Source: an uncultured Clostridia bacterium
Lineage (GTDB): Bacteria; Bacillota; Clostridia; Oscillospirales; Oscillospiraceae
NCBI GenBank assembly: GCA_946629065.1
Contig: CAMOXK010000002.1
Span: forward strand, 1 to 64,000
DNA: 64,000 bases
Reading direction: 5' to 3'
Positions 40,290-55,170 of the stretch are shown here, one piece after another. The position numbers and the translations under genes are program-made. Below the pieces are notes generated by a model. The model did no database searches. It was not told the origin of the DNA and saw only the letters and a list, made by a program, of their open reading frames with translations. Each line of letters starts with the position of its first letter. Within the stretch, counting starts at the first letter, position 1.

Positions 40290-41021
40290 ATGATCTTCAA
40301 CCTGAAGCGCCCGGCCTTCGGCCGCAGCTCCTGGAGCTTCGTCCCGGCCTCCGGCGCGGCGCAGCCCGAGTGGGCGGCAGAGGGACTGGACTGGATGATG
40401 GCCCTGCCCTGCAGCGGCACCCTCACCCTGACCATGAGCGTCTTCCACGCGGACATCTGCCTGGTGGCAGCCGGCAAGCCCGGCACCTCTGACGGCACCC
40501 GCGTGGGCGGCAACGGCGGCGGGATGATCACCGCCACCGACATCACCCTCCCTGCGGGCGTCTACACCGTCACCGTGGGCGTGTCCGGTTCGGACACCGT
40601 CCTCACCGCGCCCGACGGCCGCAGCTGGACCGCCCGCAGCGGCGAAGGCGCGGCCGGCGGCACCTACGGAACGCCCAAGGGCGGCGACGGCCAGCTGGCC
40701 TGGAACGACGCCGACACCCTGCTCCGCACCGGCTGGCGCTATGGCCCCGGCGGCGGCTACGGCTTCCACCGCAACGCCTACAGCCAGGACACCCCCGGCG
40801 GTGAGGGCGGCGACATCGGCACGGCCCCGGCGGATGAGAACGCTGGCGCCGGCGCGTCCGGTCTGGCGCACCCTGCCGGCTATCCCGGCTGCCCCGGCAC
40901 CGGCCAGGGCGGCGGAGGTGGCTCGCGCATTTACAACGGCAGCAGCTTCGATGACGGCGACGGCGGCCTGGGCGGCAGCGGCGCCGTCCTGATCCGCTAT
41001 CACAAGGAGGTCAGCGCATGA
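40290..41021 (+). CDS. Glycine-rich tail fibre/receptor-binding protein
   Basis: Gly-rich C-terminal runs ([11 protein letters not shown]...[16 protein letters not shown]). Confidence 0.65.
40581..40597. promoter_or_regulatory. Dispersed palindrome GTGTCCG-GTT-CGGACAC (site 5, in CDS)
   Basis: Perfect arms. Confidence 0.8.
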
Positions 41022-42619
41022 TCCACATGAAAGCAAACACCCGCAGGGCCGTGGCCCTGTCGGACGATCTGATAACAACCAACTCCGTCGGCATGGAGGT
41101 CTGCATCCGCTGCTCCGAAGCCTGGGAAGGCCTGACCCGCATCGCCATCTTCCGTGGCTCCGACACCTGCGTGGACGTCCTTCTCACCGGAGACAGCTGC
41201 ACGGTCCCGCCGGAGGTCCTCACCAAATCCGGCGGCCAGCTGTTCATCGGCCTCTACGGCACCGACGGCACCGGCAGCCTGGTGATCCCCACCGTCTGGG
41301 CCGACGCCGGCCGGATCCTTCAAGGCGCCGCGCCCTCCGGCATCACGCCGACCCCCGCCCAAAAGTCCGCCCTGGATCAGGCCATCGAGGCCCTGCAGAC
41401 CGCCGCCGAGGAGATCCCCACCCAGATCGACACCGCGCTTGCAGAGGCCAAGGCTTCCGGAGAATTTGACGGGCAGAATGGCAACAGCATCTGGACAACA
41501 ACGGAAACGCCTATGCCCGCAACTGGCGGCGTTGCGTTCACGCAGCTCACCGGGCGCGGCGACGTCCCGCCTATCGTGGGCGACATCATCGTCCGATCCT
41601 CCCGGTATGTGTATGAGGTGGTCGAAGTCACTTCGGGTGGTGTTGTCATCGGGCACCAGATCGGCGACATCAAGGGCGAGCAGGGCGTGGCAGATGCCAT
41701 ATGGCGTACCACTGCCTATATCGTAAGCGTGCTGTCCCCGACTGGCGCTTACCTCGGTGTCTACGTTTCTGACCTCATCGGCAGGAGCGGAGCGACACCG
41801 AAAGCCGGTGATCTTGTCATCGGCCCCGATCCCAGTTCAGAAGGCGACCCGACGCACCTGTATTCGATCCAGAGCGTCAGCGGAACATCCGTAAAGCTTG
41901 ACGATGTGGGCAGCATCCGAGGCCCCCAGGGGCCGAAGGGCGACAAGGGCGACACCGGTGCGACTGGCGCTACCGGTCCTGCCGGGCCGCAAGGTGCGAA
42001 AGGCGACAAGGGCGACAAAGGTGACAAGGGCGACAAAGGTGATACCGGCGCCACTGGTGCAACTGGTGCAACCGGCCCCGCTGGGCCTGCCGGTTCAGAC
42101 GGCGACATCATTCAAAGCATCAGGCACAGATCAAGCGACTATCGCGATGAAATCGTTATAAGCCGCAATGGGGAGACTGTGGTTATCCCGTTTGGGCACA
42201 TGTCTGCTGTCAGCTTCATTTGGGACATCGGTAGCAACAGATGGGTGTCTACACCTGGGGCAGATGCAATCGAGGCTGCTGTGAGCGAATATTCCAATGT
42301 AAACGCTACGCTTATCCTGAGGTCGGGAAGCGGCGACGCTGTTTTGCCGCTCAACTTCAATTACCAGCCCGGACTCATGAGATTCTGGTATGAAGAGGAC
42401 AATGTTGGGTATCAAATTGTGTTTGATAGCTCAGTCGCATCTGCAGCGTGGGAATATTCCACATACACGCCGCAGGCTTATGCCCTCTTGGGTGAAATTG
42501 ATAACGCTAAGCTTGAAATCGACCAGGGCGTTGCAAATGCGGGGAAGTTCCTGGTGGTGGGGGCCGACGGAAACATCACGGCTGTCACGATGACCGCATG
42601 GCAAGGAGGTAACTACTGA
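41018..42619 (+). CDS. BppU-like N-terminal tail fibre with collagen-like repeats
   Basis: [58 protein letters not shown]. Confidence 0.8.
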
Positions 42620-43284
42620 TGAGCCTTGACAAACTTGTGGACAGCACCCAGCTCGACGCTGACCTGACTTCCGTTGCTAACGCCATCCGCACGAAGGGCG
42701 GCACCAGCGGGCAGCTTGCGTTTCCAGCGGGATTTGTGAGTGCAGTGGAGGCCATCGAGACGGGAATTGAACCGACAGGGACAAAAACCGTGCTGATAAC
42801 CGAAAACGGCACACGGGAAGTTGATGTCGCCGAGTTTGCAAAAGCTGTAATCTCCGCAAATATCAGCGGAGCGGTAGCATGGCCTGAACCGACAGCGACT
42901 TTTGTTGCAGGTTCATCCGTTGTCCCGAGCTGTTTCAATAACGCTAAATTCATACCGAAGTACGACAACGAGCTGATAATCTATGTTTTCCAGCCAGAAA
43001 GTGGTGCACCGACTTCCGGATCAGTTACATGCTATATGCTGGGGTTCCATAGAATTAACAAGGCTTATGGAACAACGAGTAGATGCTGGGCTATTACTGG
43101 GCCAGAGAAAACGATACCGTGGTCTAGCACTTTTACATGGGCTAGTCGCAATTCAACCGGCGTTTACGATGATGCGGATGGCTACATCACTTTCCCGACA
43201 AGCACGTGGTATCGTACAAATTCAAACTCCATCATTAAGGTTTATGAAATTCCGTATAGTTCAATGGGGGCGAGTGCGACATGA
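42619..43284 (+). CDS. Tail fibre-associated hypothetical protein
   Basis: [46 protein letters not shown] is common in Firmicute phage tail regions. Confidence 0.7.
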   Translation: MSLDKLVDSTQLDADLTSVANAIRTKGGTSGQLAFPAGFVSAVEAIETGIEPTGTKTVLITENGTREVDVAEFAKAVISANISGAVAWPEPTATFVAGSSVVPSCFNNAKFIPKYDNELIIYVFQPESGAPTSGSVTCYMLGFHRINKAYGTTSRCWAITGPEKTIPWSSTFTWASRNSTGVYDDADGYITFPTSTWYRTNSNSIIKVYEIPYSSMGASAT

Positions 43285-43535
43285 GATATTTTAAAACGCT
43301 ACGAGACGGATATATTCTGACGGTTGGGATTGGCAATATTGAGACAGAAATCACACAAGAAGAATATAATTCTCTGTATGAAATGTTCATGTCTATGCCA
43401 AGCGAAAATGGATATGATTTTCTGCTCAAGGCGGATTCCTTAACATGGGAAAAAGTCGAGGCACAGGAAGAGCCGGAAGAGGACGAGCTGACGGATGAGG
43501 AAGCGTTGGAGATCATCTTCGGAGGTGCGACATGA
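43281..43535 (+). CDS. Small hypothetical tail-region protein
   Basis: 84-aa ORF overlapping its neighbours. Confidence 0.6.
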   Translation: MRYFKTLRDGYILTVGIGNIETEITQEEYNSLYEMFMSMPSENGYDFLLKADSLTWEKVEAQEEPEEDELTDEEALEIIFGGAT

Positions 43536-43945
43536 CAAGAGAACACGCATACAAGCTGCGGGATCTGCTGCACAAGGCCAGCACCAGCCTCTCGGACGAG
43601 GACGCGCTGGAGGCGGTAGAGCTGTTTCCGGTGTGGGCAAGCGGCGTTGCCTACAAGAAGGACGAACGCTTTCGCTATGGTGGCAAGTTGTACAAAGTGC
43701 GGCAAGACCACACGTCTCAGGCGGATTGGCTCCCGGACAGTACGCCGAGCCTTTACGCGGAGGTGGAAAAGCCCGGGCAGGGAGACACGCCGGACAATCC
43801 GATCCCGTACAGCGGCAACATGGAGCTGCTGGAGGGCAAATACTATAGCGAGGACGGCGCGGTGTACCGCTGCTTCCGCAGCACCGGCATCCCGGTCTAT
43901 AACCGGCTGGCGGATTTGGTGGGCATCTATGTGGAGGTCGTGTGA
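43532..43945 (+). CDS. Carbohydrate-binding-like phage protein
   Basis: ELFPVWASGVAYKKDERFRYGGKLYKVRQDHTSQADWLPDSTPSLY resembles chitin-binding-type modules. Confidence 0.7.
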   Translation: MTREHAYKLRDLLHKASTSLSDEDALEAVELFPVWASGVAYKKDERFRYGGKLYKVRQDHTSQADWLPDSTPSLYAEVEKPGQGDTPDNPIPYSGNMELLEGKYYSEDGAVYRCFRSTGIPVYNRLADLVGIYVEVV

Positions 43946-44037
43946 TGCCATACAGGAAGGTGAGCTATCTGGAGCAGATGTGGTATCTGCTCCGGTACAA
44001 GCTCCGAGAGCTGCTCGGAAAGGAGACCGTGACATGA
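43945..44037 (+). CDS. Very small XkdX-position protein
   Basis: MPYRKVSYLEQMWYLLRYKLRELLGKETVT*; overlaps neighbours on both sides. Confidence 0.45.
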   Translation: MPYRKVSYLEQMWYLLRYKLRELLGKETVT

Positions 44038-44156
44038 TTTGGATTTTTGCCGCGCACATAGCGGCCCTGCTGCTCTGGTGCCCGCTGGGGAAGATCGCCC
44101 AGCGGAGTGATGCGGACCAGGCTCCGGCGGAAGGAGAAGAAAATGACCGAGCTTGA
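44034..44156 (+). CDS. Small single-TM protein (possible lysis accessory)
   Basis: MIWIFAAHIAALLLWCPLGKIAQRSDADQAPAEGEENDRA*. Confidence 0.45.
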   Translation: MIWIFAAHIAALLLWCPLGKIAQRSDADQAPAEGEENDRA

Positions 44157-44898
44157 GATCTTCAAGAAATGTTTGACCCTGGGCATGACCCCGGCCGGCG
44201 CAGCCGGCTGCACGGCGAATATCCTGGCGGAGAGCGCCGGGCGCCCCAACAACGTGGAGGACCGGTCCGGGATCTCCGACAGCTACTACACGGAGCGCGT
44301 GGACTCCGGCGCCTATGACGGCTTCGTCACCGACCGCTACGGCTACGGCCTCTGCCAGTGGACCTCCCCCTCGCGCAAGCAGGCCCTCCTGGACTATGCC
44401 CGCGCCCACGGCGTCAGCATCTCCGACGCAGACATGCAGTTCCAGTTCCTGGTCCGCGAGATGCGGAACACCTACACTTATGTGTGGAACATCCTCACCC
44501 ACACCGCGGATCCCTACGAGGCGGGGTATGTCGTATGCAAGTTCTACGAGATCCCGGCCAACACGGAGCAGAGCTCCCAGAGCCGCGGTGCCCGGGCCCG
44601 GGAGATCCTGGCCCGCTGCGCCCCCGCCACTCCGGATCCGGCGCCGGTGTCCGATCCGGACACAAAGCCGGCCTCCGAGTTCTGGCCGCCCAGGATGATC
44701 TGCCAGGGCATGGAAGGCCCGGACGTCCTGGCGCTGCAGGCCCTGCTGACGGCCCACGGCTACACCGTGATCGTGGTCAACGGCGTCTTCGACGACGGCA
44801 CTGACAAGGCCACCCGGCGCTTCCAGGAGGCCGAGAGGCTGGACGTGGACGGCATCGCCGGTCCCAAGACCTGGGCCAGGATCCTGGCCAGAGAATAG
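44143..44898 (+). CDS. Endolysin: tail-tip lysozyme-like domain plus peptidoglycan-binding domain
   Basis: GMTPAGAAGCTANILAESAGRPNNVED...YGLCQWTSPSRKQALLDYA; C-terminal PGDB-like GPDVLALQALLTAHGY...DGIAGPKTWARI. Confidence 0.9.
   Translation: MTELEIFKKCLTLGMTPAGAAGCTANILAESAGRPNNVEDRSGISDSYYTERVDSGAYDGFVTDRYGYGLCQWTSPSRKQALLDYARAHGVSISDADMQFQFLVREMRNTYTYVWNILTHTADPYEAGYVVCKFYEIPANTEQSSQSRGARAREILARCAPATPDPAPVSDPDTKPASEFWPPRMICQGMEGPDVLALQALLTAHGYTVIVVNGVFDDGTDKATRRFQEAERLDVDGIAGPKTWARILARE
44647..44663. promoter_or_regulatory. Dispersed palindrome GTGTCCG-ATC-CGGACAC (site 6, endolysin linker)
   Basis: Perfect arms, in the interdomain linker. Confidence 0.8.
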
Positions 44899-44910
44899 GA
44901 GGAGATCCCT

Positions 44911-45444
44911 ATGAACACCATGAACGCGAAGCTCACCTACTACAGCTCTCTGGCCGTGCTGGCCGCTGCCGGCGCCGCGATCACCGAGGCTCTGGGCGGC
45001 TGGGACACAGCCCTGCAGACCCTCGTCATCCTCATGGCCATCGACTACGTCACAGGGCTCCTGTGCGCCCTGATCTGGAAGAAGAGTCCCAAGACCGCCG
45101 ACGGGACCTTCGAGTCCAAGGCCAGCCTCAAGGGCCTGATCCGGAAGGGCGCCATCCTCCTGGTGGTCTACATCGCGGCCCGGCTCGACGTCCTCATGGG
45201 CACGGAGATCACCCGCCTGGCCGTGATTTTGTTCTTTATCGCCAACGACGGCTTCTCCATCCTGGAGAACCTGGGGATCATGGGAGTCCCTTTGCCTGGC
45301 ATCGTCAAGAACGCCTTCACGCTGCTGCGCGAGAAGTCCGACGGGCTGCAGAGCCAGCACCCTGCCGCAGCCGTGAAACCCGCGCCGGATCCCGAGGAGC
45401 CGGAGGCCTACGTCCCGAAGCACAGCTCCGATCCCGACAAATGA
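44911..45444 (+). CDS. Phage holin family protein
   Basis: LVILMAIDYVTGLLCALIWKKSPKT...LKGLIRKGAILLVVYIAARLD. Confidence 0.9.
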   Translation: MNTMNAKLTYYSSLAVLAAAGAAITEALGGWDTALQTLVILMAIDYVTGLLCALIWKKSPKTADGTFESKASLKGLIRKGAILLVVYIAARLDVLMGTEITRLAVILFFIANDGFSILENLGIMGVPLPGIVKNAFTLLREKSDGLQSQHPAAAVKPAPDPEEPEAYVPKHSSDPDK

Positions 45445-45446
45445 GC

Positions 45447-45486
45447 AAAGCCCTGGGAAGGACATCTTTGTCCCTCCCAGGGCTTT
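45447..45486 (+). terminator. Terminator after the holin gene
   Basis: aaagccctggga...tcccagggcttt stem-loop. Confidence 0.75.
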
Positions 45487-45578: not shown

Positions 45579-45625
45579 TTTGGTCCGAGTGACTGGATTT
45601 GAACCAGCGGCCTCTTGAACCCCAT
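45579..45625. repeat. attR: 47-bp core repeat
   Basis: Identical to 13163-13209; overlaps the tRNA-Pro 3' half. Confidence 0.95.
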
Positions 45626-45656
45626 TCAAGCGCGCTACCATCTGCGCTACACCCGG
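45581..45656 (-). tRNA. tRNA-Pro(GGG)
   Basis: Full cloverleaf: acceptor CCGGGUG/CACUCGG, D arm GCGC/GCGC, anticodon stem CUUGA/UCAAG with loop AUGGGGU, T arm GCUGG-UUCAAAU-CCAGU, encoded CCA. Confidence 0.93.
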
Positions 45657-46656: not shown

Positions 46657-46824
46657 GGAACCACCTTTCTTTTTTGAAGAATCGGATCTTGATCCACGCC
46701 GATATCATACTCTGCCGTGCTGCCAAAGTCTATAAAAATTTGTAAATTTGCAAACTTATGCTTCCTTTTTACCGGTAGCTGTGGTATGCTTTATCAGTAA
46801 AATTATAACTTGGAGTCGTATGCA

Positions 46825-47580
46825 ATGGAGAAGGAAACTGGGATTCAGAATGAAATCATCGAGGGCCGCAACGCGGTAATGGAGGCCTTGAAGGCCGGCC
46901 GCGCCATGGACAAGCTCTATATCAGCAAGGGCGAGGTGGACAGAACTCTGGGACACATTGCCTCCACCGCCCGGGACAAGGGCATCGTCGTGGTGGAGTG
47001 CGACCGGCGCAAGCTGGACTTCATGTCCAGGACCCATGCCCATCAGGGCGTCATCGCGCTGGTGGCCGTGCGGGTTTACTGCTCGGTGGAGGATCTCTTC
47101 GCCATTGCCGAGGAGCGGGGCGAAGCTCCCTTTCTGATCGTCTGTGACGAGATCAGCGACGGGCACAATCTTGGCGCCATCATCCGCTCCGCCGAGTGTG
47201 CCGGCGCCCACGGCGTCATCATCCCCAAGCGCCGCAGCGCGGGACTCACCGCCGTGGTGGACAAGGCCAGCGCCGGTGCCGCCGAGCATATGGCCGTTGC
47301 CAGAGTCCCCAACATTCCCGCCGCCCTCAAAGAACTGAAGGAGCGGGGCGTCTGGGTCTACGGCACCGCAGCCGACGGGCAGAACGACCTGTGGCACACG
47401 GACTTTTCCGGTCCTCTCGCCCTGGTCATCGGCTCTGAGGGTGACGGCATGGGCCGCTTGGTGCGGGAATGCTGCGATTTCATCGTGAGCCTTCCCATGA
47501 AGGGCAGGGTCAGTTCCCTTAACGCCAGCGCAGCCGCCGCCATCACCATGTATGAAATCCTTCGCCAGCGCAGTCTGTAA
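46825..47580 (+). CDS. rlmB: 23S rRNA (guanosine-2'-O)-methyltransferase RlmB-like (SpoU family)
   Basis: IIEGRNAVMEALKAGR, DGHNLGAIIRSAECAGAHGVIIPKRRSAGLT, LVIGSEGDGMGRLVRECCD, PMKGRVSSLNASAA. Confidence 0.93.
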   Translation: MEKETGIQNEIIEGRNAVMEALKAGRAMDKLYISKGEVDRTLGHIASTARDKGIVVVECDRRKLDFMSRTHAHQGVIALVAVRVYCSVEDLFAIAEERGEAPFLIVCDEISDGHNLGAIIRSAECAGAHGVIIPKRRSAGLTAVVDKASAGAAEHMAVARVPNIPAALKELKERGVWVYGTAADGQNDLWHTDFSGPLALVIGSEGDGMGRLVRECCDFIVSLPMKGRVSSLNASAAAAITMYEILRQRSL

Positions 47581-47631: not shown

Positions 47632-50600
47632 ATGAGTCGCTTTCCTTCGGAAGAAGAACAGAATATGGAATCTCCGGATTACCGGGTCAATGACATCCTG
47701 GCGGAGATTTTGGACGATATGCTGCCGGAAGCCAAGCAGACGTCCGCACCCCGGCGCAGCCTTTCCCGCTCTTCTGCGGACGCTCTGCGCCCCGCGGAAG
47801 ATCCGGAAGACAGCGTGCGCATCTATCAGCCACGGCGGGACCGGGGGGACACCAAGGAGCGTCTCGCCTCTCGCTGGGACGAGGAAGCTCCGGTCCCGGA
47901 AGCCGCTCCTGCACATCCGATGGAGGAGGAAGCGGATGCGACGGCGCCCGGCGGGAAAGCACGCCCGGATCTGAAGAGTCTGGCAAGCAGCTTTCTTTCC
48001 CGCCTCCGTTCGGAGCCCAGATCCCGCGCTTCCAAGACAGCTGTCTCACCGGAGGAACTGCCCAGCTTTGACGAACTGCTCTGGGGCAAAAAGACCGAAC
48101 CTGTGCGCATTGAGGAGGAAGAGGATGCTCCTCCCGCTCCGGAGCCCGTCCGGGCCGCGGTGTCCGCACCCGTTCGCCGCGCCGCCCCTGAGGTAGAGGT
48201 CCACATTCCCGAGGCGGAGCTCACCGGTCTTTCGGTGGACGCCATCCTCGCAGAATACTGGGGCGGTCTGGAAGAGAGCACCGCACCCGTAGAGCCCCAG
48301 CAGCTTCCCCGCCGCAGACAGCGTCAGGAGGCTCCCGTCCCCGTAGAGAAGCCACGATCATTCTTTTCCGAAAAAGCGAAATCCGGCAGCAAGCGAAACA
48401 ACATCCAGGACCTTCTGGGCAATCTGAGCAAAAAGCGCCCCTCGCCCGTGAAAAAGGCCCCGCGCGCCCCGGAGCCGGAAGAGGATACCGCCTATGAACC
48501 GGCGCCGGTCAGGCGGATCTTCCCGGAGGATGAGGCTCCCGCCGCTGCGCCGCGGCCTCAGCCCAAGGCAGAACCGAAGGCTGATCCCGATGTTCTCAAT
48601 ATGTCCGTGAACGACATTTTGTCGGAGTTCTGGGCGGAGTACACAGAGCCGACGGAGCAGCCCGCTCCCCGTGCCGACGCGCCCCGTTCCCGTCGGGAAG
48701 CCGCCCGCATGCGGGAGGAGGCTTCCTCTCTCCCCCCTACCGGCGCGGCCCCCTCGGCCGCTGAGAGCGCTCCAAGGCGCAGGGAAAAGGCGCACAACTC
48801 CCCCACCGTCTCTGGCAAAGGGGACGCTTCTTCCGCCGCTCCCCGCCCTTCCCCCAGGAAGCGGGAAACGGGGCACAGCCGAAAGGATCTTCCTGCCGCG
48901 AAGGAGGACACAGTCCTCCCTGAGACGGAAGCTCCCGCCCCCCTTTCTCCTTCCGCAGCCACAGAGACTTTCGCCTTTCTCCGCCGCGAGCGGCGCGAGG
49001 AGGCCTCTCCCGCGAAAAAAGAGCCGGAACCTCCGGTTCCTCCCCAGCCGACTCCTCCCGCCCCCAAGAAGCCAAATTCTTCCCCTCGGCGAAGAGAGAT
49101 TATAGATGAGGATGTTGAATTCTCCGCCATGTCCGTAGATGATATTTTAGCTGAATACAACGATATACTCGCCGCCATTCCCGCCGCGGCCGATGCCATC
49201 GGTGAAGAGCGAAAGGCGGAACCCGCACGCAGGAAGGAGCCTGTCTCCCCTGCCGCACCTCCCTCCCCCAGATCCGGCGAGGGCGGCAGAGTCTCCCGTA
49301 TGGAGGAGGAAGCCCGGGGCATCCTGCAGCAGATGCGGGGTGACAGCTTCTCCTCCCGCAGCGAGGGAGGCAAGCCGCAGGGCGGTCTCCGCAGAGCGGA
49401 GGCCAAAGCCCCCGTTTCCGAACCGGATCCGGTTCCCTCTGCGAAAGAGCCTGTCAATACGGTTCCGGATCTGACCGCCGCGGACTGGAGCGAGAGCCTG
49501 CGCCGTCTTCTCGATCAGGATCCAGCGCCTCCCCAGCCGGCTGCCGCCATGGAGCCCTCCCGGAAGGAAGGCAGCGAGCTCACACGACCCAAGCCCTCCC
49601 GCAGCTACGTTATTCCCTCTGAGGAGATTGATCCCCGCTTCAATCTCACGGGAGAGCGGAAGAGCACCATGGTCTTCGACGGCAAGGAACTGGACCTGAG
49701 TGCGGACGAGAGCTATGTCCCTCCCAAGCCCAGCGGCAACGTGGGCTTCCACTGGGTAGTCGGCGAAGAGGAGCTTCCGGAAAAGCCGCTGGAGAAAAAG
49801 AGCCTTTTCCGCAAGACCGCAAAAAAGGCGCCTGCCGCCGAGGCGGAAGCGCCCGAACATACCGAGGGCTATGACGACCGGGTCCGGCCGGAATACGCCC
49901 CGGATCTGGACTATGACGAGGAGGACGGGGAAGACCCCAACGCCTTTCCCACCTTTGGTCAGTACCTCTCCGGCATGGTCTCCAGCCTTCTGGTCCGCCT
50001 CTTCGGCGCCAAACGCAGCCGCACCGGCGGTGCCTCCTCCACCATGGAGGATGAGAGCGAGGATCTGGGTCCCGAGGTTCCCCCCGCTACCGCCTCCAAG
50101 TACTACGGCTCCTTCGTCACCAGTCTCCGCATGCGGGTGCGCATCGGTCTGGTGCTGCTGGCCGTTCTGGCCTGGATCACGCTGGGGCTCCCGGTCTCCG
50201 GCGCGCTGCGCACCGTGCAGGTGGCCTCCGGTCTCTCCCTGGCTATTCAGCTCACGATCCTGCTGCTGGGCCTGGATGTGGTCACCGGCTCGCTGATAAA
50301 CCTTGCCCGGGGCCGCTTCGGCGCCGACTCGCTGGCCGTCCTGGGCTGCATTCTCACGAGCCTGGATGCGCTGTCCGTCTGCATCGGCTTTCTGGGCACG
50401 CCCCACATGCCGCTGTGCCTGATCTCCAGTCTCTCCTTCCTGGGCGTGCTGATGTCCTCTCTGGCCAGCGCCAGAGGACTGCGCAAGGCGCTGCGGGTGC
50501 CGGCCATCGGCAAGCGCTGCTATGCCGTCACTGCGGAGCCGGACGTAAAGGGCCGCGGCCTGACCCTGCTCAAGTCCATGCGGCCGCCCAAGGGCTTTGT

Positions 50601-51693
50601 CCGCAGGACAGAGGAGGCCGCCCCCGATGAAACCGCCTTCAACCGTCTCTCCCCCGTTCTTGCGATCCTGGCTCTGCTTCTGTCCCTGATCGTCGCCATC
50701 GCAAAGCACGCCTTCCCTGAGTTTCTGTACATCCTCACGGTGGTTCTTTGCCCGGCGGTGCCCATGATGGCGCTGCTCTGCTTCGCGCTTCCCTTCCTCT
50801 TCGGTTCCCTGCGCATCTTCCACAGCGGTGCCGCCATTGCCGGTTGGTCCGGCATCAGCGACATCGGCAGCAGCGATAACCTGATCGTCACCGACCGGGA
50901 TCTGTTCCCCGAGGGCAGCGTAGAGATCGACACAGTACGCATCTTTGCCGAGGTGCAGCCGGAGACCATCATCTCCTACGCCGGAACCATGATCTGCGCC
51001 TCCGGCTCTGACCTGTCCCCCTGCTTCTCCCAGCTGATGGAGAAGAACAACTGCTCCATGCGGCGTGTGGAAGGCTTTGAGAACCTCTCCGGCGGCGGCA
51101 TGAAGGGCGTTATCGACGGCAGCGTGATCCTCTGCGGCGGTCTGGACCTGATGCGTCTGATGAATGTCCGCGTGCCTTACCGCCTGGTAGGCAAGACCAC
51201 GGTGCTGCTGGCAGTGGACGGCATCCTCTGCGGCATCTTCAACATGAAGTACGAAGGGCAGCCTCAGGTGCGCAAGGCACTGGTGGGCTTGATCCGCTCC
51301 AACCGCCACCCCATCTTCGCCATCCGGGACTTTCTGGTGACGCCGGAAATGCTGTCGGACTGCTTTGAGGTCGCCACCGACGGCTATGATTTCCCGCCTT
51401 ACGTGGATCGTTTCGCCATCTCCGAGGCCAAGCCCTCCGCCGACAGCAAGCCTGCCGCGGTGGTTTGCCGGGAAGGTCTGGGGCCTCTGGTCCACATGGC
51501 CGATACTGCACGCAGCCTGTATCTGGCCGTGCGCATCAACCTGATGCTCACGATCCTGGCCGCGGTGCTGGGAGTGTTCGTAGTCTTTGTGAAACTTCTT
51601 TCCGCGGGCACCGTCTCTGCCGGCTTCCTGCTGCTGTTCCTGCTGCTCTGGGCTCTGCCTGTGCTGCTGATCAGCGCCTTTTTGAGACTCTGA
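47632..51693 (+). CDS. Large protein: N-terminal disordered region with four DILAEY-type repeats, C-terminal degenerate P-type ATPase-like membrane domain
   Basis: Repeats YRVNDILAEI, LSVDAILAEYW, MSVNDILSEFW, MSVDDILAEYN; C-terminal TM segments with LIVTDRDLFPEG in place of DKTGT. Confidence 0.75.
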   Translation: MSRFPSEEEQNMESPDYRVNDILAEILDDMLPEAKQTSAPRRSLSRSSADALRPAEDPEDSVRIYQPRRDRGDTKERLASRWDEEAPVPEAAPAHPMEEEADATAPGGKARPDLKSLASSFLSRLRSEPRSRASKTAVSPEELPSFDELLWGKKTEPVRIEEEEDAPPAPEPVRAAVSAPVRRAAPEVEVHIPEAELTGLSVDAILAEYWGGLEESTAPVEPQQLPRRRQRQEAPVPVEKPRSFFSEKAKSGSKRNNIQDLLGNLSKKRPSPVKKAPRAPEPEEDTAYEPAPVRRIFPEDEAPAAAPRPQPKAEPKADPDVLNMSVNDILSEFWAEYTEPTEQPAPRADAPRSRREAARMREEASSLPPTGAAPSAAESAPRRREKAHNSPTVSGKGDASSAAPRPSPRKRETGHSRKDLPAAKEDTVLPETEAPAPLSPSAATETFAFLRRERREEASPAKKEPEPPVPPQPTPPAPKKPNSSPRRREIIDEDVEFSAMSVDDILAEYNDILAAIPAAADAIGEERKAEPARRKEPVSPAAPPSPRSGEGGRVSRMEEEARGILQQMRGDSFSSRSEGGKPQGGLRRAEAKAPVSEPDPVPSAKEPVNTVPDLTAADWSESLRRLLDQDPAPPQPAAAMEPSRKEGSELTRPKPSRSYVIPSEEIDPRFNLTGERKSTMVFDGKELDLSADESYVPPKPSGNVGFHWVVGEEELPEKPLEKKSLFRKTAKKAPAAEAEAPEHTEGYDDRVRPEYAPDLDYDEEDGEDPNAFPTFGQYLSGMVSSLLVRLFGAKRSRTGGASSTMEDESEDLGPEVPPATASKYYGSFVTSLRMRVRIGLVLLAVLAWITLGLPVSGALRTVQVASGLSLAIQLTILLLGLDVVTGSLINLARGRFGADSLAVLGCILTSLDALSVCIGFLGTPHMPLCLISSLSFLGVLMSSLASARGLRKALRVPAIGKRCYAVTAEPDVKGRGLTLLKSMRPPKGFVRRTEEAAPDETAFNRLSPVLAILALLLSLIVAIAKHAFPEFLYILTVVLCPAVPMMALLCFALPFLFGSLRIFHSGAAIAGWSGISDIGSSDNLIVTDRDLFPEGSVEIDTVRIFAEVQPETIISYAGTMICASGSDLSPCFSQLMEKNNCSMRRVEGFENLSGGGMKGVIDGSVILCGGLDLMRLMNVRVPYRLVGKTTVLLAVDGILCGIFNMKYEGQPQVRKALVGLIRSNRHPIFAIRDFLVTPEMLSDCFEVATDGYDFPPYVDRFAISEAKPSADSKPAAVVCREGLGPLVHMADTARSLYLAVRINLMLTILAAVLGVFVVFVKLLSAGTVSAGFLLLFLLLWALPVLLISAFLRL

Positions 51694-51696
51694 TAT

Positions 51697-51733
51697 ACAA
51701 TAAATCTCCTGACAAATGTCGGGAGATTTTTTG
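51697..51733 (+). terminator. Terminator after the 1353-aa gene
   Basis: aaatctcctgacaaatgtcgggagattttttg. Confidence 0.8.
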
Positions 51734-51747
51734 TCAGAAAGCATACG

Positions 51748-51976
51748 GAAACGCCCGGCCAATGGCCGGGCGTTTCAAGGTGTCGACAAAGTGTCGACAC
51801 CTTGAAACGCAAAAATGGGAACTACCGAAAAAGTTCCCATTTTTGCGCGGATTGAACGTGAAGGGGGGCATACCCTCCCCCCTTCACAATCCCCCCATGC
51901 GTGTCCAAGCGTTGTCGCATAGGCGAAGGGTTGTCTACAGTCTGGGAAACGCCCGGCCAATGGCCGGGCGTTTCCC
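51748..51976. repeat. Array of five hairpins (REP-like) in an intergenic region
   Basis: Hairpins at 51748-51776, 51771-51809, 51809-51846, 51858-51887 and 51944-51976; the first and last share gaaacgcccggccaatggccgggcgtttc. Confidence 0.8.
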
Positions 51977-52825: not shown

Positions 52826-52950
52826 TTACAAGTGAATAGTGAAAAGAGAAGAGGGAAGAGATGATGAGTCCGCGGACCGGACAAATTGAATCATCGCCGA
52901 AGGCGATTCCACAACTTTTCACTTTTCTTTCTTCACTTTTCTCTCTTTAC
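52826..52950. repeat. Dispersed repeat family C, copy 1
   Basis: agtgaatagtgaaaagagaagagggaagagatgatg...atcgccgaaggcgatt...cttttcacttttctttcttcacttttctc. Confidence 0.65.
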
Positions 52951-52996
52951 AATACACGGCGACCCCAGAGGGAGCCGCCGTGTGTGGATTTCTGTC

Positions 52997-55009
52997 TTAT
53001 TCCGCCTCAGCCAGAGCCTTGGCCTCTTCGATGACCTTCTGCTGCACGTTGCCGGGAGCTTCCTCGTAACGGATGAACTTGCAGGTGAAGGAACCGCGGC
53101 CCTGGGTCATGGAGCGCAGGTCGATGGTGTAAGAGCTCATCTCAGCCATGGGGACCTCGGCCTCCACGGTCTGCATGCCGTCCTCGGCAGTCATGCCCAG
53201 CACGGTGCCGCGGCGCTTGGAGCTGATGTCGCTCATGATGTCACCCAGGTTCTCATCGGGGATGCTGACCTGCAGCAGGCCGATGGGCTCCAGGATGGTG
53301 GGCTTGGCCTTGGGGATGCCGTCCTGGTAGGCCAGACGGGCAGCGGTCTGGAAGGCCATATCGTTGGAGTCCACAGGGTGGTAGGAGCCATCGTACAGGG
53401 TCGCCTTCAGGCCGACCAGCGGGTAGCCCGCCAGGACGCCCTTCTGCACCGCGTTGCGCAGACCCTTTTCCACAGAGGGGAAGAAGTTTTTGGGAACGGA
53501 GCCGCCGAAGACTTCCTCGGCGAAGATCATGTCGTCCTGCTCCTCCTGGGGCTCGAAGCGGATCCACACGTCACCGAACTGGCCGGAACCGCCGGACTGC
53601 TTCTTGTGACGGCCGTGGGCTTCCACTTTGCCCTTGATCTTCTCACGGTAAGCCACGCGGGCGGGCTTCAGCTCGGTTTCCACGCCGAAGCGGCTCTTCA
53701 GCTTGGCGCAGAGCACGTCCACCTGAATGTCGCCCTGGCCGGAGATGACCATCTGGTGGGTCTCAGCGTTGTTCACCAGGGTGAAGGAGATGTCTTCCTC
53801 GTTGAGTCTGGCAAGGCCGCCGGCGACCTTGTCGTCCTGGCCCTTGGTCTTGGGGGAGATGGCCATGGAGTAGCAGGGTTCGGGCATCTCAATGGCGGGG
53901 AGCTCGTCCTCGTTCTTGGGATCGCACACGGTATCGCCGGTCTTCCAGTCCATCTTGCCGACGGCAACGATGTCGCCGCAGCAGGCATCCTTGACCTCGG
54001 TCATCTTCTTGCCGGTGGCAGTGTAGAGACGGCCCAGCTTGTCGGTGCTGGAAGCGCGGAGGTTGCGGAGAGAGAGATCGGAGGTGATGGTGCCCTTCAT
54101 GACCTTCACGAAGCTGTACTTGCCGAACTGGTCGGACACGGTCTTGAACACGAAGCCCTGGACGGGGGCGCTGGGGTCGATGCCTTCCACCTCGGAGGGA
54201 TCGGGCACATAGTCGGCGATGCCCTGCAGCAGGGCCTCGGTGCCGATGTTCTGCATGGCGGCGCTGGCGAACACGGGGATCACGTCCCGGCTGGCGACAC
54301 CGGCCTTGATGCCGGCGATCATGTCCTCCTCGCTCAGCTCCATCTCCTCGAAGAACTTCTCCATCAGCTCCTCGGTGGCGCCGGCGGCGGTCTCCATCAG
54401 CTCCATGCGCAGGTCTTCCACATGACCGGCGTCGGCAGCGGGGACCTCGGTCTTGGTGGTCTTGCCGCCCTTGGTGACGTAAGCCACATTCTTCACCAGG
54501 TCAATGACACCGGTGCCGTCGGAGGTGGGAATGGTCACGGGAGCGACGATGCTGCCGTACTTCTCACGCAGCGCGTCCACCACGGCAAAGAAATCGCCGT
54601 GCTCCTCATCGGTCTTGGACACCACAAACATGGTGGGCAGATTCGCGGCCTTGGTGGCCTTCCACATACGCTCGGCACCGACGGAGATACCGTCCTTGGC
54701 GGTGACCAGGATGGCGCCGGCTTCCACAGCGCGCATGGCGCACAGGGTCTCACCGACGAAGTCGAAGTAGCCCGGGCAGTCCAGCACGTTGATCTTCTTG
54801 CCGCCGAAGCTGACAGGGGCGATGGAGGCGGCGATGGTGATCTGGCGCTTGATCTCTTCCGCGTCGTAGTCGCAGGTGGTGTTGCCGTCAGAGACCTTGC
54901 CCTGACGATCGATGGCGCCGGTCACAAAGAGCATGCTCTCGGCCAGACTGGTCTTGCCGCTGTTGCCGTGGCCCAGGAGGGCGATGTTGCGAATGTTTTT
55001 GGTTTCCAT
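52997..55009 (-). CDS. Elongation factor G-like GTPase (paralog)
   Basis: GHGNSGKTSL (G1), DCPGYFDF (G3), EF-G domain IV/V C-terminus; divergent G4 (SKTD). Confidence 0.9.
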   Translation of the reverse strand: METKNIRNIALLGHGNSGKTSLAESMLFVTGAIDRQGKVSDGNTTCDYDAEEIKRQITIAASIAPVSFGGKKINVLDCPGYFDFVGETLCAMRAVEAGAILVTAKDGISVGAERMWKATKAANLPTMFVVSKTDEEHGDFFAVVDALREKYGSIVAPVTIPTSDGTGVIDLVKNVAYVTKGGKTTKTEVPAADAGHVEDLRMELMETAAGATEELMEKFFEEMELSEEDMIAGIKAGVASRDVIPVFASAAMQNIGTEALLQGIADYVPDPSEVEGIDPSAPVQGFVFKTVSDQFGKYSFVKVMKGTITSDLSLRNLRASSTDKLGRLYTATGKKMTEVKDACCGDIVAVGKMDWKTGDTVCDPKNEDELPAIEMPEPCYSMAISPKTKGQDDKVAGGLARLNEEDISFTLVNNAETHQMVISGQGDIQVDVLCAKLKSRFGVETELKPARVAYREKIKGKVEAHGRHKKQSGGSGQFGDVWIRFEPQEEQDDMIFAEEVFGGSVPKNFFPSVEKGLRNAVQKGVLAGYPLVGLKATLYDGSYHPVDSNDMAFQTAARLAYQDGIPKAKPTILEPIGLLQVSIPDENLGDIMSDISSKRRGTVLGMTAEDGMQTVEAEVPMAEMSSYTIDLRSMTQGRGSFTCKFIRYEEAPGNVQQKVIEEAKALAEAE

Positions 55010-55170
55010 GTGTTGCTTCCTCTCTGAAAAGTATATATAAGACTTGGTATTACGCCTTAGAAACAGTCCAAATTATTATACACTACAAACTGCTGCTCTG
55101 GCAAGCATTATTTTTACTTGTTTCTTCTTTCCGCGCAGAAAGCCGGAATCTCGCCCGGGACCGGTCTGAA

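Follow-up and report, generated by a model that had tools for sequence, protein, structure and literature searches.

A P1B-type ATPase family that appears to have lost its pumping function is conserved across a bacterial order and carries a recurrent N-terminal helix motif

The window, meaning the whole 64,000-nucleotide stretch of clostridial DNA analysed here, encodes a 1,353-residue membrane protein that is almost certainly a pseudo-pump, derived from the P1B heavy-metal ATPases and, judged by its sequence, no longer pumping. It belongs to the P-type superfamily by descent and, on the features that define these enzymes, is not a working P-type ATPase. The protein is most likely a non-pumping scaffold or sensor, the floppy N-terminus of which would dock a cytoplasmic partner, and the evidence as a whole suggests the conversion of a former pump into a membrane scaffold. 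If correct, this would be a P-type pseudoenzyme family whose role in a common gut bacterial group is strongly conserved. Literature searches yielded no paper on P-type pseudoenzymes and no account of a P-type ATPase that, after losing catalysis, had become a core gene shared by nearly all members of an order. The parts of the gene and its upstream neighbor are listed in Table 1.

Table 1. Features of the pseudo-pump locus in the window.
Feature	Position	Strand	Basis and remarks
rlmB (SpoU/TrmH-family 23S rRNA 2'-O-methyltransferase)	46810..47580	+	Pfam PF00588, E 2.8e-40
Pseudo-P1B-ATPase gene	47632..51693	+	1353-aa ORF
Motif copy 1, VNDILAEI	47686..47709	+	residues 19-26; pattern search and conservation
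Conserved block LPSFDELLWGKK	48058..48093	+	residues 143-154
Motif copy 2, VDAILAEY	48235..48258	+	residues 202-209; pattern search and conservation
Motif copy 3, VNDILSEF	48607..48630	+	residues 326-333; pattern search and conservation
Motif copy 4, VDDILAEY	49135..49158	+	residues 502-509; pattern search and conservation
TM helices 1-4 (= P1B MA, MB, M1, M2)	50083..50508	+	AlphaFold helices 10-151 of core model; named by fold match
Beta-hairpin at the place of the actuator domain, without TGE	50509..50622	+	AlphaFold model and alignment
TM helices 5-6 (= M3, M4); V-P-M for CPC	50623..50823	+	AlphaFold model and alignment
TDRDLFPEG at the place of DKTGTLTxG	50890..50916	+	profile match to LpCopA and alignment
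GGGMKG, N-domain glycine loop, kept	51091..51108	+	profile and LpCopA match
AIRDF, TGD equivalent; Asp nearly invariant	51319..51333	+	profile and LpCopA match
Junction near the GDGxND deletion	51457..51489	+	alignment, deleted in 53/53; position from LpCopA match
Terminal TM pair (M5, M6 equivalents)	51484..51690	+	AlphaFold helices 476-517 and 522-544

The family was delineated with homologues of the last ~545 residues (the core), which were gathered both within the genus and in further families of the order. As a single sequence, the 1,353-residue protein gave no match in a Pfam search and a weak P1B-ATPase match in NCBIfam (E = 2e-5, residues 1003–1222); the family profile matched LpCopA with E = 1.1e-30. 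The AlphaFold model of the core (pLDDT 90.4, pTM 0.85) has the P1B layout of eight transmembrane (TM) helices, including the two extra N-terminal ones, and its best PDB match by Foldseek was LpCopA (4bbj, E = 4.8e-18), which was again the best structural match for a second model, built from a 700-residue member of another family. TM-scores to P-type structures were moderate (about 0.45–0.6), as expected because the actuator domain is absent and the domains are mobile. A viral-structure search matched only P-type pumps of giant viruses. Profile similarity and predicted fold thus place the protein in the P-type superfamily, in agreement with the earlier note, which had read the C-terminal part as a P-type ATPase core and had proposed structure prediction as the check. 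Like the P1B heavy-metal ATPases (CopA/CopB; LpCopA 3rfu and 4bbj), the pseudo-pump has the eight-helix layout, the P/N fold, the GxG loop, the Asp of TGD and the Pro of CPC, whereas it lacks DKTGT, TGE, HP, GDGxND, the metal-site cysteines and the actuator domain and carries a long disordered, motif-bearing N-terminus in place of heavy-metal-binding domains.

The loss of catalytic motifs was followed residue by residue. The window genome (a 67% complete assembly) also encodes a canonical P1B pump (locus L002) that retains DKTGT, TGE and GDGxND, and this pump served as the yardstick. DKTGT, TGE[SP] and GDGxND occur nowhere in the 1,353-residue protein; an intact DKTGT elsewhere in the chain, one of the findings that the earlier note had named as a refutation, was therefore absent. 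In a joint MAFFT alignment of 53 family members with the canonical pump, alongside a HMMER match to LpCopA, DKTGT was found in none of the 53, which are kin, so that residue counts among them are not independent events. The column of the catalytic Asp holds Thr in 37 members, Ser in five, Arg in three, Asp in three and other residues in the rest, and the three with Asp never have KTGT. The columns of the Lys and the Gly of DKTGT are each Asp or Glu in 51/53, the Leu column of DKTGTLT is Phe or Tyr in 51/53 and that of its last Thr is Pro in 48/53; the phosphorylation loop is filled by a new conserved motif, xDxD[LI]FPxG. The earlier statement that DRDLF stands in for DKTGT holds in substance, but the register shifts by one in both HMMER and MAFFT, with the catalytic Asp facing the Thr of TDRDLFPEG and the DRDLF Asp facing the Lys. 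The GDGxND hinge motif is deleted in all 53. TGE is absent from the core, where TM helices 4 and 5 are connected by a hairpin of ~38 residues in place of the actuator domain. The CPC of M4 has become V/A-P-F/L/V/M (Pro in 49/53, both cysteines lost), and no His lies opposite SEHPLA of LpCopA, the N-domain His-Pro of the ATP site having been lost. Of the P-type chemistry, the glycine loop of the N-domain and the TGD Asp are left.

The altered protein is widespread. With a 31-sequence profile and a threshold of E ≤ 1e-60, 187 of the 198 order genomes searched (each at least 95% complete except the window's own) gave a family match, one per genome and in 109 of 115 genera. Named homologue records come from rumen and gut assemblies of Oscillospiraceae, Ruminococcaceae and Clostridiales, and the order is probably Oscillospirales. 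None of 278 genomes of the class outside the order gave a full-length match. An extension of the family beyond the order was considered and rejected: the outside matches are partial and come from canonical P1B pumps (model positions ~184–469), with an E-value gap of 1e-77 inside against 1e-39 outside. Within the genus, a good rlmB match is missing too from six members in which no pseudo-pump was detected, and the contigs of two others stop just past rlmB; most absences there are probably assembly gaps because rlmB is missing too or the contig ends. Values of dN/dS against relatives (0.035–0.38 for the core, 0.22–0.45 for the N-terminus) indicate that the family is under purifying selection. 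Together with the order-wide loss of catalytic motifs, this lends strong support to the pseudo-transporter reading that the earlier note had put forward. Among membrane pseudoenzymes, iRhoms and SUR1 are likewise maintained by selection although catalysis or transport is gone; the likeness lies in the retained scaffold and is an analogy between different superfamilies, and the literature searched held no P-type counterpart.

The N-terminus carries four short repeats that are real by two measures. Four strict copies are present in 800 residues, compared to an average of 0.00085 and a maximum of one in shuffled sequences, and among the seven closest sequences the repeats are better conserved than the rest of the N-terminus (0.87 versus 0.61), a level matched by random windows in 34 of 20,000 draws. 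A further conserved block, LPSFDELLWGKK, may be a degenerate copy. Across the family, the strict motif occurs in 33 of 62 members (0.04 expected), and many of the remaining members have a looser near-match at the N-terminus, for example MSDKFSLDDILQEY or PLSVDDILFEF. One N-terminal copy is widespread across the order; the number of copies is three to five (strict) in close relatives of the window's protein and, by a looser pattern, up to seven in one of them (L043). A cross-family alignment of 13 members shows an invariant motif Glu and a nearly invariant Ile, the members having been picked partly for having the motif. In the full-length model of the member from another family, no helix except the motif is predicted in a disordered 150-residue tail, and there it stands isolated and with low confidence. 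The encapsulation peptides of bacterial microcompartments (BMC), the FtsZ C-terminal peptide, SSB-Ct and eukaryotic FFAT are short linear motifs that, by analogy only, resemble this one as short amphipathic or acidic-hydrophobic peptides that end a disordered linker. To our knowledge, F-S-V-D-D-I-L-A-E-F matches no known motif of this kind, and a text search for the motif peptides found no paper.

The same motif recurs on other membrane proteins of the genus. Carriers were sought by DNA-pattern searches followed by translation, which gives an incomplete list; reversed-pattern controls mostly gave 0–2 matches per genome and strand. With the pseudo-pump, four protein families of the genus carry the motif, beyond chance given the low controls. 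In the signal peptidase II, LspA, it forms the last residues (ending in SFDLDDILAEFK) in eleven genomes; in a single-TM NAGPA-family protein (PF09992) it lies at the N-terminus in eight genomes, and in a small single-TM protein it lies at the N-terminus in three. Both ends of LspA are cytoplasmic, and in the other two proteins the motif is followed by a single TM helix, so the motif is apparently on the cytoplasmic side in all carriers. This recurrence independently supports the proposal that the repeats are docking motifs, with docking itself still putative. The LspA of the genus (L096:1058-2113) has a Pro/Ala-rich C-terminal tail of ~200 residues that is absent in the other genera examined, and no motif tail was found on LspA there. 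Among the genomes searched outside the genus, the pseudo-pump was the only carrier; candidates from other families were rejected, as the remaining pattern matches look like chance occurrences inside folded enzymes (RecF, SMC and FtsY). An LGT-family paralogue (PF01790, E ~1e-15) lies directly downstream of the NAGPA-family carrier (L101:3983-4999, L102, L106, L260-L267). It is possibly a second pseudoenzyme, without the GRWGNF...EAFG and HPTxLYE residues that the true Lgt of the genome has. The genes for the small motif protein and for the NAGPA-family carrier are each immediately preceded by a Beta-lactamase2-family gene (PF13354; L098:822-2660, L106:2623-4353).

These observations can be joined in a scaffold and docking mechanism, which we consider the best single reading (probability about 0.55, covering the cytoplasmic placement, the docking, the common partner and the scaffold role). 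A P1B heavy-metal pump would have been the ancestor of a protein that, by all its motifs, should neither be phosphorylated or dephosphorylated nor bind metal. Its eight-helix membrane domain and reshaped P/N domain would act as a fixed platform, possibly a ligand-sensing one, while the long disordered N-terminus displays short amphipathic helices, [FM]-S-[VL]-[DE]-[DE]-I-L-x-E-[FY], that would dock onto a cytoplasmic partner conserved across the order. One copy is probably ancestral, and avidity would be higher in the closest relatives of the window's protein, which have three to five. In the genus, the same helix would have been gained by the cytoplasmic ends of LspA, the NAGPA-family protein and the small single-pass protein, and the common partner would gather these with the pseudo-pump. 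Since the motif persists on the pseudo-pump even where other proteins are without it, the partner would be order-wide; docking cannot be the sole role of the core because a good part of the members have no recognizable motif. In one genus member (92% complete), neither a pseudo-pump nor rlmB was detected, yet LspA and the small protein retain the motif; the hub may therefore not be the pseudo-pump itself. A fuller version, in which a heavy-metal pump became an order-wide, single-copy core scaffold and a genus-level peptide code on the pseudo-pump, LspA and surface enzymes converges on one cytoplasmic hub organizing envelope biogenesis, is offered tentatively. If correct, the shared docking helix would be a direct handle on an undescribed cytoplasmic organizer.

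Two other readings are compatible with a scaffold. The protein could be a ligand-gated sensor or receptor in which a nucleotide or divalent metal, bound in a rebuilt pocket of DxDLFP, GxG and the TGD Asp, triggers a conformational change that the N-terminal motifs report to a signalling protein. The kept glycine loop and the new acidic motif at the old active site (Asp in 49/53, Asp or Glu in 51/53, Phe or Tyr in 51/53 and Pro in 48/53) fit such a pocket; however, the ATP-site His-Pro and the GDGxND motif are gone, no ligand is known and the conservation could be structural, which leaves this reading doubtful. Less probable still is a pseudo-enzyme regulator coupled to RlmB that ties ribosome assembly to the membrane, its motif recruiting a ribosome-associated factor. 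The pseudo-pump gene starts 51 bp after rlmB in the window and lies directly downstream of it in 23 of 24 families for which DNA data were usable, often with an EF-G-family gene nearby. In the lone exception (family f2, L046:3137-6784), the genes preceding the pseudo-pump encode an Obg-like GTPase and an L21-like protein instead of rlmB. Adjacency can nevertheless mean co-transcription only, the motif-sharing LspA and NAGPA-family proteins have no known ribosomal role, and RlmB is widespread outside the order without a pseudo-pump neighbor.

A divergent but active transporter using other chemistry, such as phosphorylation at a displaced Asp or at the new DxD, would account for the intact eight-helix membrane domain and the acidic cluster in the P-loop; it is very improbable, as the actuator domain, TGE, GDGxND, the CPC cysteines and KTGT are missing in every member. 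That the missing catalytic motifs reflect a decayed pseudogene or an assembly artefact is hardly credible and was rejected: dN/dS is well below 1, and long open frames persist in those 187 genomes, in independent assemblies with core identity of up to 97%.

Elsewhere in the window, two long mirror ORFs (49147-51762 on the minus strand and 52886-55027 on the plus strand) run antisense to G+C-rich genes and are probably not genes. Upstream of the locus, prophage-like tail/collagen-repeat, holin and endolysin genes (41018-45465) lie beside a tRNA-Pro gene (45581-45656).
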